From Blautia liquoris (GTDB lineage: Bacteria; Bacillota; Clostridia; Lachnospirales; Lachnospiraceae): a stretch of 64,000 nucleotides of DNA. Below the pieces are notes generated by a model that had not been told where the DNA came from, did no database searches, and worked only from the letters and a program-made list of their open reading frames with translations. This document shows positions 51,514 to 54,167 of this stretch, piece after piece. The stretch spans positions 806,001-870,000 of the forward strand of contig NZ_CP063304.1 of the NCBI RefSeq assembly GCF_015159595.1, in the 5' to 3' direction. Position numbers and translations under genes: made by a program. The stretch's first letter is position 1, and every line of letters starts with the position of its first letter.

Positions 51514-51552
51514 ACAGATAAGCGCAGAGTTTTATCTCTCTGTGGCTGTGAG

Positions 51553-51593
51553 AATAAAAGACAGGTTTTATCAGGCCCTGTCTTTTATTATAT
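51553..51593 (+). terminator. Rho-independent terminator after htrA
   Basis: A perfect 13-bp stem, AATAAAAGACAGG (51553-51565) with its complement at 51577-51589. The A/T-rich ends of the stem supply the U-tract on either strand. Confidence 0.9.
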
Positions 51594-51600
51594 ATATAGG

Positions 51601-51629
51601 TTGCACACTCAAACCGTTTCAGATATAAT
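51601..51629 (+). promoter_or_regulatory. Promoter of the clpX-like operon
   Basis: TTGCAC (51601-51606) and TATAAT (51624-51629) with a 17-base spacer, the same -35 sequence as the rfb promoter at 13152. The leader to the ATG at 51706 is about 70 bases. Confidence 0.8.
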
Positions 51630-51705: not shown

Positions 51706-53148
51706 ATGTCAGAGGACAAGGATAAGATAAACCTGCCCGCGGATGAAGATCCAAAGGCCGAAGAGACTGACAGTGATCATAAAAAAGACGACGAATATGA
51801 AGAAGTCTGCTTTATGTGCAGGCGGCCGGAGAGTAAAGCAGGAAAGATGTTCGAGCTTCCCGGAAATATTCATATTTGCTCCGATTGCATGCAGAAGAGT
51901 TTTGATACCATGAATAATGGGAACATGAACTATAGCGACCTGCTAAGTCAACTGCCTCCGAATGTCAGTATGATTGATTTAAGTTCTATCCAAAAGCAGG
52001 TTCCGCCTAGGCAGCGTCCGAAGAAGAAAAGCCAAGACAAGACAAAGGAGACAAAGAAACAGTTTTCTATGGAGAATATTCCGGCTCCGCACAGACTGAA
52101 GGAGATGCTGGATGACTATGTGATCGGACAGGAATATGCGAAAAAAGTGATGTCGGTTGCAGTTTATAATCATTATAAACGTGTTTTCTCTTCCCGGGAA
52201 GACGGAGTTGAGATTGAGAAATCAAATATGCTTATGATCGGGCCTACAGGTTCCGGCAAGACTTATCTGGTTCAGACACTGGCAAAACTTCTGGATGTGC
52301 CGCTGGCGCTTACAGACGCAACATCTCTTACGGAGGCTGGTTATATCGGAGATGATATCGAAAGTGTTGTCAGCAAACTTCTTGCGGCGGCCGACAATGA
52401 TGTAGAACGCGCAGAACATGGAATTATCTTTATCGATGAGATTGATAAAATTGCAAAGAAGAAAAATACGAATCAGCGAGACGTGAGCGGTGAAGCTGTT
52501 CAGCAGGGTATGCTAAAACTGCTTGAGGGCAGTGATGTTGAGGTTCCGGTTGGAGCTAATTCGAAAAATGCCATGGTTCCGCTTGAGACAGTAAATACGA
52601 GGAATATTCTCTTTATCTGTGGCGGAGCATTTCCGGATCTGACAGATATCATCAAGGAAAGGCTGACCAAGACATCATCGGTAGGATTTCAGGCAGATCT
52701 GAAGGATAAGTATGACGATGAACCGAATCTGGTATCAAAGGTTACAACCGATGATTTGAGAAATTATGGAATGATTCCAGAATTCATCGGACGTCTCCCA
52801 ATTATATTCACCTTAGATGCACTCTCGGAGGATATGATGGTTGAGATCTTACATGAACCGAAAAATGCAATATTAAAGCAGTATAAGAAACTGCTTTCCA
52901 TGGACGAGGTAAAGCTGACTTTCAGTGAGGATGCACTTCATGCGATTGCAAAAAAGGCGATGGAAAGACATACGGGTGCCAGAGCATTGCGCTCGATTAT
53001 AGAGGATTTTATGTTGGATATCATGTATGAAATACCAAAAGATGACAGTATTGGAGAGGTTGTTATTACAAAAGAATATATAGAACGCACAGGCGGCCCG
53101 CGTATTGTTCTTCGGGGACAAGAAGTCCCGAAGATTGGGATGCAATAA
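51706..53148 (+). CDS. Divergent ClpX paralogue lacking the RKH loop
   Basis: A 480-residue AAA+ unfoldase of the ClpX family. It has a 30-residue acidic N-terminal extension, a zinc-binding domain with Cys35, Cys38, Cys58 and Cys61, Walker A GPTGSGKT (179-186), the pore loop GYIGDD (212-217; GYVG in classical ClpX), Walker B IIFIDEID (240-247) and a ClpX-type C-terminus. Two features differ. The segment after LEGS reads VPVGANSKNAMVPLE, so the RKH substrate-entry loop is missing. The ClpP-docking loop reads SVGF rather than the usual IGF form. No clpP is adjacent. It may have its own substrates or weak ClpP coupling; the housekeeping clpX is presumably elsewhere. Confidence 0.9.
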   Translation: MSEDKDKINLPADEDPKAEETDSDHKKDDEYEEVCFMCRRPESKAGKMFELPGNIHICSDCMQKSFDTMNNGNMNYSDLLSQLPPNVSMIDLSSIQKQVPPRQRPKKKSQDKTKETKKQFSMENIPAPHRLKEMLDDYVIGQEYAKKVMSVAVYNHYKRVFSSREDGVEIEKSNMLMIGPTGSGKTYLVQTLAKLLDVPLALTDATSLTEAGYIGDDIESVVSKLLAAADNDVERAEHGIIFIDEIDKIAKKKNTNQRDVSGEAVQQGMLKLLEGSDVEVPVGANSKNAMVPLETVNTRNILFICGGAFPDLTDIIKERLTKTSSVGFQADLKDKYDDEPNLVSKVTTDDLRNYGMIPEFIGRLPIIFTLDALSEDMMVEILHEPKNAILKQYKKLLSMDEVKLTFSEDALHAIAKKAMERHTGARALRSIIEDFMLDIMYEIPKDDSIGEVVITKEYIERTGGPRIVLRGQEVPKIGMQ

Positions 53149-53702: not shown

Positions 53703-54167
53703 ATGGTTTACATTGCAGTTCTTTTCGGCGTATTCTTTGGAGACCTGATCATCAAGAGGCAGGCGGAACAAAAGATTGGGATGGGGGAAGAATACCCCAT
53801 TTTGAATGGAAGATTCATCATTCGTAAACTTCATAATGATGGGCTTGCTTTCGGCAGACTCTCGGATTACCCCAGACTGATAAAGTGGGGAAATCTGGGA
53901 ATGCTGGGAAGCATAAGCCTTTATTTTATCTGGCTTTTGATGCATCCCGGGCAGCGGCTGAAAAAGGTAGGTCTTGGTATGGTGATTGGCGGAGGTCTTT
54001 CCAATGAGGCTGACCGCATAAACGCAGGTTATGTAACTGATTATGTCAGCATACAGAGCCGTTTTGAAAAAATCAGGAGAATTGTGTTTAATATATCAGA
54101 TTTCTTCATTTTTATTGGAAGTATCCTATACATACTTGGAAGCTTTAAAAGAAATACGGGAAAATAG
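53703..54167 (+). CDS. Signal peptidase II (LspA)-like membrane protein
   Basis: A 154-residue protein with four predicted membrane segments and the key residues of lipoprotein signal peptidase: LHNDGLAFG (Asn45), SNEADRI with Asp104, and FNISDFF with Asp133. Asp104 and Asp133 are the predicted catalytic aspartates. It is a divergent member: the usual GNLIDR is SNEADR and the first loop is short. The genome may have a canonical LspA elsewhere, so this could be a paralogue for particular lipoproteins. It lies in the clpX-zinc-ribbon-DUF368 operon. Confidence 0.75.
   Translation: MVYIAVLFGVFFGDLIIKRQAEQKIGMGEEYPILNGRFIIRKLHNDGLAFGRLSDYPRLIKWGNLGMLGSISLYFIWLLMHPGQRLKKVGLGMVIGGGLSNEADRINAGYVTDYVSIQSRFEKIRRIVFNISDFFIFIGSILYILGSFKRNTGK

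Follow-up and report, generated by a model that had tools for sequence, protein, structure and literature searches.

The 64,000-nucleotide stretch of the Blautia liquoris genome analysed here (the window) carries a gene for a second ClpX, which we call ClpX2. This protein is a family-wide paralogue found in addition to the ordinary ClpX in nearly all sampled Lachnospiraceae. We consider it fairly probable that ClpX2 is a second functional ClpX of the whole family that docks on ClpP, is blind to ssrA tags and has substrates of its own. Most likely, it would form an ATP-driven hexamer and would dock on the ClpP of the cell through an [IMV]-G-[FY] loop. It would not recognize ssrA-tagged proteins, as the gripping residues in the pore-2 and RKH loops are replaced, and it would select its own substrates through a conserved SKN loop together with its own zinc domain or adaptors.

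The genome of Blautia liquoris consists of one contig of 3.52 Mb and contains, besides clpX2, one other ClpX above the cut-off. This gene, clpX1 (C1:343016-344218), follows directly after clpP, and the clpP-clpX pair spans C1:342387-344218. A sequence-only reading of the window had presupposed a second clpX in the genome, and the ordinary clpX adjoining clpP bears this out. The same reading saw no clpP next to clpX2, and the open reading frames listed around clpX2 indeed include none. ClpX1 keeps the threonine at position 199 (E. coli numbering) and the RKH motif. With these residues it could serve the tmRNA of this genome, which encodes the tag ADEENVLCAA. Three proteins match the ClpP family (PF00574), and one of them is the ordinary ClpP. 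The second, a 232-aa protein among phage-type genes, is presumably different from ClpP, judging from its neighbours. The third, of 213 aa, we take on similar grounds to be a TepA-type protein. Since these two are judged to be different, we count one ordinary ClpP in this genome.

The features of clpX2 are listed below. Counts out of 81 refer to the protein of the window plus the best 80 of at least 581 confirmed matches (the 81 best orthologues). A second set comprises 36 further sequences, with the window protein among them once.

51706..53148, + strand: clpX2, encoding a 480-aa ClpX paralogue, an AAA+ unfoldase (open reading frame; scores above cut-off with NCBIfam ClpX models; tree position apart from the sampled housekeeping ClpX)
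51706..51807, + strand: acidic N-terminal extension, residues 1-34 (census of the 81 best orthologues)
51808..51888, + strand: core of the C4 zinc-binding domain, C35, C38, C58 and C61 (CCCC in 81/81; Pfam zf-C4_ClpX)
52240..52263, + strand: Walker A GPTGSGKT, residues 179-186 (GPTGSGKT 60/81, GPTGCGKT 21/81)
52339..52350, + strand: pore-1 loop GYIG, residues 212-215 (GYIG 81/81)
52426..52449, + strand: Walker B IFIDEIDK, residues 241-248 (IFIDEIDK 66/81, VFIDEIDK 11/81, IFVDEIDK 4/81)
52450..52485, + strand: pore-2 loop, shorter by two residues than its housekeeping counterpart, with Q257 at the T199 position (loop length; alignment with E. coli ClpX; residue census)
52543..52575, + strand: RKH-position loop VPVGANSKNAM, with SKN at 52561-52569 (SKN 80/81, NKN 1/81; equal loop length)
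52681..52689, + strand: ClpP-docking tripeptide VGF, residues 326-328 (IGF 55/81, MGF 23/81, VGF 3/81)

Pfam recognizes the ClpX C4 zinc finger (zf-C4_ClpX, 34.0 bits, cut-off 27), the AAA+ domain and the C-terminal small domain. Together with the motif census, this confirms the early description of an intact zinc domain, Walker A, Walker B and ClpX C-terminus. The HslU model reaches 214 bits, below its cut-off of 362.45. Two NCBIfam models still call the protein an ordinary ClpX (NF003745, 565.9 bits, cut-off 359; TIGR00382, 495.5 bits, cut-off 370.75), which argues against a separate role for ClpX2. An acidic extension of 30 residues had also been described. A 34-residue acidic stretch does precede the first cysteine, but its sequence is poorly conserved; across the 81 best orthologues, what recurs is net acidity (median 8, range -1 to 17) ahead of the first cysteine (median 32 residues). 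Conservation in the core is about equal for the two paralogues: mean identity over 105 pairs of 15 genomes is 0.777 for ClpX2 and 0.762 for ClpX1, with ClpX2 lower in 47/105 pairs. With motifs intact and conservation about as strong as that of ClpX1, we can rule out that clpX2 is a pseudogene.

Two structure models of ClpX2 were built. The first had a mean pLDDT of 58.2 and the second, from a more varied alignment, 78.4, with low confidence in the pore loops and the ends, the block of the SKN tip included. A Foldseek search with the second model returned, among the matches listed, exclusively ClpX or ClpXP entries, the first being an integrative model. In this model, strands 277-281 and 293-297 are predicted to flank the SKN tip, much as the RKH loop has been described as having a beta-ribbon stem (PMC7112951).

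The loop at the RKH position is one indication that ClpX2 may read other substrates. It had been reported as lost and replaced by VPVGANSKNAM. The residues have changed, but the loop is present and of the same length as in ClpX1 (25 residues between fixed columns, 81/81 best orthologues). Alignments with ClpX1 and with E. coli ClpX both place SKN in register with RKH, which means that the lysine is kept. The RKH motif itself occurs in none of the 81 best orthologues, which have SKN in 80 cases and NKN in one, and the wider context VGANSKNAMVP is found in 61 of them. The 36 further sequences have SKN (28), NKN (4), QKN (2) or SKS (2), and the lysine is retained in every protein of both sets. 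The pore-2 loop differs as well, a feature that was not listed before: it has 9 residues in ClpX2 versus 11 in ClpX1 (81/81 best orthologues). The residue preceding R200 (E. coli numbering) is threonine in 88/88 RKH-bearing ClpX reading frames, whereas 119 motif-matched ClpX2 sequences have Q (85), S (25), A (3), H (2), N (2) or T (2), with a few duplicates in each collection. The pore-1 loop GYIG was read correctly from the start; it is one conservative change, present in all 81 best orthologues.

Six residues of E. coli ClpX have been described as critical for ssrA binding and specificity, namely Y153, V154, T199, V202, R228 and H230 (PMC7652416). At these positions, the ClpX2 of the window keeps Y153 and V202, has isoleucine for V154, and replaces T199 by Q, R228 by S and H230 by N. 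In E. coli ClpX the substitutions T199A, T199V, V202A and H230A cause large KM increases; with R228A, KM rises at least 50-fold and specificity is altered (PMC7652416). Changing RKH to AAA abolishes degradation of ssrA substrates, and changing it to AKH slows it (PMC7112951). Human ClpX has leucine at both 199 and 230, and it degrades ssrA substrates only when given the E. coli loops (PMC7652416). Because three of the six ssrA-gripping residues of E. coli are replaced, we infer that ClpX2 is probably blind to ssrA tags. Some residual ssrA binding may persist, given that the lysine at the RKH position is kept, that the pore-1 contacts are kept or conservatively changed, and that 2 of 119 ClpX2 sequences have threonine at the 199 position. 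The conservation of these substrate-contact changes across orthologues supports the initial suggestion of a specialised unfoldase with different substrates.

We read the docking loop of ClpX2 as functional on the basis of its conserved G-F, of tripeptide classes that also occur in housekeeping ClpX, and of the VGF of ClpE, where this tripeptide is the ClpP-interaction motif (PMC13125188). The G-F is found in 81/81 best orthologues, all with a tripeptide of the [ILMV]-G-F type, as have 31 of the 36 further sequences (IGF 19, MGF 10, VGF 2; the other five have IGY). The 88 RKH-bearing ClpX show the same classes (IGF 49, MGF 27, LGF 8, VGF 1), with three more outside the search expression (two MGF and one IGF), and the housekeeping ClpX with VGF (L216) also has RKH. 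It was therefore misleading to call the SVGF of the window altered: VGF is a minority variant among classes shared with RKH-bearing proteins (1/88). The two censuses, of ClpX2 and of housekeeping ClpX, rule out a loss of the ClpP-docking motif. The strength of docking is a separate matter. In E. coli ClpX, binding to ClpP is severely impaired by I268L, F270L or V274A (PMC7112951). Of these positions, the first is V in the ClpX2 of the window, and the third is L there as in all 81 best orthologues. From these two substitutions, the affinity of ClpX2 for ClpP could be lower.

ClpX2 alone might act as a ClpP-independent remodelling chaperone. ClpX has chaperone roles without ClpP. The docking residue of the window protein is V and not the commoner I, five of the 36 further sequences have IGY, the available flanks seldom show clpX2 next to clpP, and I268L already weakens ClpP binding severely in E. 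coli (PMC7112951). We nevertheless regard this explanation as unlikely, in view of the invariant G-F of the 81 best orthologues, of the tripeptide classes shared with housekeeping copies and of the VGF that docks ClpP in ClpE (PMC13125188). The sequence-only reading had raised work without ClpP as one option, which gains no support from these counts or from gene order in one genome (G525, L261 3058-7437). Here glmM, tig, clpP, clpX1, engB and clpX2 lie in a row on one strand, with clpX2 downstream of tig-clpP-clpX1-engB (glmM, tig and engB were named from reading of the translations). This genome is the sole such case of 118, a count in which the window appears twice and many flanks are short; the flanks of the other ClpX2 loci contain neither clpP nor engB.

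Surveys at three taxonomic levels place ClpX2 in the Lachnospiraceae. Among 118 genomes of the order, both copies were present in 21/21 Lachnospiraceae, and a ClpX2-level match, judged by score and identity, in 0/97 others. One of these 97 had no match at the threshold (G441), and another had two equal-scoring housekeeping-level matches (G449). Within the family, 248 genomes from 242 genera were called by best E-value: 236 have a ClpX2-level match and 12 a housekeeping-level match only. Eight of the lower-scoring cases proved on re-examination to be ClpX2, three of them split across contigs. Absences were read from assemblies at least 95% complete, in which single absences may be gaps. The exact ClpX2 loop pattern occurs in 17/393 genomes of the class, all 17 of them Lachnospiraceae (the sample holds 20 genomes of this family). 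At the level of the phylum (299 genomes, E <= 1e-70), the only instances of a second ClpX beyond the Lachnospiraceae are in f124, a family of another class (10/10), and in one further genome (G910), and all these copies keep RKH. Most named orthologues among the matches listed belong to the Lachnospiraceae, with Blautia, Murimonas, Sellimonas and Faecalicatena among the genera; some that are labelled otherwise, for example Muribaculaceae (L065) and Oscillospiraceae (L069), are probably mislabelled assemblies.

Several genomes hold additional ClpX-like genes. One (G489, L169 7296-10374) has a tandem pair of ClpX-like AAA+ genes in which the RKH region is shortened and Pfam gives no zinc-finger match. 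The pair lies downstream of clpX2 at a distance of about 3.6 kb, preceded by a gene that appears to be of surface type and followed by one for an apparently GGDEF-like protein. Another genome (G509) has two ClpX-like genes (L170 3766-5028 and L171 3553-5073) lacking a Pfam zinc-finger match, RKH and a recognisable xGF docking motif; the neighbours of the former resemble conjugative-element genes. Third ClpX copies were seen in four more genomes (L172-L175; in G554, G564, G622 and G612, respectively). Of these, L173 and L174 have both RKH and the zinc domain; RKH is missing from L172 and L175.

ClpX2 is phylogenetically distinct from housekeeping ClpX. In a tree of 93 sequences it forms one clade (100/99) outside the sampled housekeeping ClpX, subject to a long-branch warning. 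When eight third copies and one long housekeeping sequence were left out, the clade persisted (100/100) and joined the second copy of f124, again with a long-branch warning. A single clade of ClpX2 with the ClpX1 of its own family was not rejected (AU p = 0.084). The grouping of ClpX2 among ordinary housekeeping ClpX, named at the outset as a check on the paralogue reading, appears in neither tree. Alternatively, ClpX2 might serve chiefly to back up ClpX1, redundantly or under particular conditions, with substrates that overlap. The two proteins are 51.5% identical across 355 residues, the NCBIfam equivalog models for ClpX accept ClpX2, and the gene was lost about 10 times on the tree of ClpX1. 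A backup is nonetheless hard to reconcile with substrate-contacting positions that changed and then became largely fixed among orthologues, or with one separate clade in place of repeated recent copies, and we hold it to be quite improbable. We assign a similarly small chance to mixed hexamers in which ClpX2 would tune the substrate choice of ClpX1. Most genomes of the family carry both copies, and a pseudohexamer in which two RKH loops are altered and four are wild-type remains able to degrade substrate, at an about 3-fold higher KM (PMC7112951). On the other side stand two genomes with ClpX2 and no ClpX1 (G522 and G713), though assembly gaps could explain these. A second ClpX with its own substrates remains the reading that we prefer.

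In the window, clpX2 comes after htrA and is followed in turn by a zinc-ribbon gene, an lspA-like gene and a PopT-like gene. Two features precede clpX2:

51545..51600, + strand: hairpin between htrA and clpX2, a possible terminator separating both genes (RNA fold)
51602..51629, + strand: promoter-like site upstream of clpX2 (10/12 consensus matches)

The hairpin has a folding energy of -17 kcal/mol (z -3.53; 0/200 shuffles as stable). Terminator-like sites number 8 versus 2.5 expected by chance (sd 1.6), and this hairpin is not among the sites listed. Promoter-like sites number 11 versus 8.0 by chance (sd 2.8), which is not clearly above chance. Among the loci of the 81 best orthologues, 79 could be anchored (not L049 and L073). 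Their flanks, many of which end at contig ends, contain an htrA-type neighbour in 39 cases, a zinc-ribbon gene in 40 and an lspA-like gene in 36. The neighbours vary among orthologues, and within these flanks we can exclude a conserved operon partner that would reveal the function of clpX2. The LspA-like protein encoded at 53703-54167, between the zinc-ribbon and PopT-like genes, scores 66.4 with the NCBIfam LspA model, below the cut-off of 73.95, and passes the Pfam Peptidase_A8 cut-off.

The pattern of loss provides a lead to function. The sporulation gene spoIVA is present in 165/236 genomes with ClpX2 versus 1/12 without it (G607; Fisher p 2.8e-5, relatedness ignored). The motility gene FliM, used as a control, shows a weaker trend (120/236 versus 3/12; Fisher p 0.14). 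On a ClpX1 tree of 55 family genomes, we count about 10 losses of ClpX2. This tree holds all 12 genomes lacking ClpX2 and 43 of the 236 bearing it, hand-picked and enriched for those lacking spoIVA. A paired test on it gave four supported independent pairs, two to three agreeing and none opposing, which is not significant. The genomes lacking ClpX2 have a median size of 2.35 Mb, and general genome reduction may lie behind the loss. Sporulation cannot be the sole role of ClpX2, since 71 genomes bear it without spoIVA. In Bacillus subtilis, ClpXP with CmpA controls the quality of the spore envelope through SpoIVA (PMC5506225), and Myxococcus deleted for its clpX2, which has K for R in RKH, sporulates at about 41% of the wild-type rate (PMC11423568). 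A part for ClpX2 in sporulation-linked proteolysis is a lead, not a result.

Taking these observations together, we venture a broader proposal, about which we have more doubt than conviction. The Lachnospiraceae might run two ClpXP proteases on one ClpP: one that reads ssrA tags, and a second, family-wide one with its own degron code set by the SKN loop and the zinc domain, which would have been lost mainly after the loss of sporulation. ClpX serves as a reference AAA+ unfoldase, and most of what is known about its degron code comes from E. coli. A natural paralogue that keeps motor and docking and replaces the tag-gripping residues offers a ready test of which residues set substrate choice. 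Moreover, the genes that curated models call plain 'ClpX' in this major family of gut bacteria comprise two groups whose roles probably differ. This split bears on annotation and on drugs aimed at ClpXP. Among the open-licence papers listed by our searches, judged by title or the start of the abstract, we found no description of a Lachnospiraceae ClpX2 paralogue.

Other cases of more than one ClpX, or of a ClpX with other tag contacts, are related to ClpX2 to different degrees. The sampled genomes of f124 all carry two ClpX (10/10), and the second joins ClpX2 in one of the two trees, under the long-branch warning given above. In contrast to ClpX2, these second copies (L219-L228) keep RKH, in the sequence GQRKHPEAPT, and have an [IM]GF docking loop (10/10). 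Their ClpX-model scores are as low as that of ClpX2 despite RKH. Myxococcus xanthus belongs to a different phylum from the Lachnospiraceae. Its ClpX2 and ClpX3 are likewise encoded by extra clpX genes away from clpP; deletion of clpX2 impairs fruiting bodies and sporulation, and deletion of clpX3 impairs growth at raised temperature (PMC11423568). The available part of this study, of one strain, does not mention an SKN loop. HslU is, like ClpX2, an AAA+ partner of a peptidase, with a weaker sequence match, and ClpX2 differs from it by the zinc domain and the ClpX-type docking tripeptide. To our knowledge, CLPX is the only mitochondrial ClpX in human. It resembles ClpX2 in lacking ssrA contacts of E. 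coli ClpX, two in its case, and it leaves ssrA substrates undegraded (PMC7652416), as ClpX2 probably would; unlike ClpX2, which has Q and N at positions 199 and 230, it has leucine at both. With the housekeeping proteins, ClpX1 and E. coli ClpX, ClpX2 shares domain order, zinc domain, Walker motifs, pore-1, docking class and fold. In contrast to them, it has SKN for RKH, a pore-2 loop shorter by two residues, mostly Q or S for T199, a longer linker after the zinc domain, an acidic N-terminus, and a locus and clade of its own.
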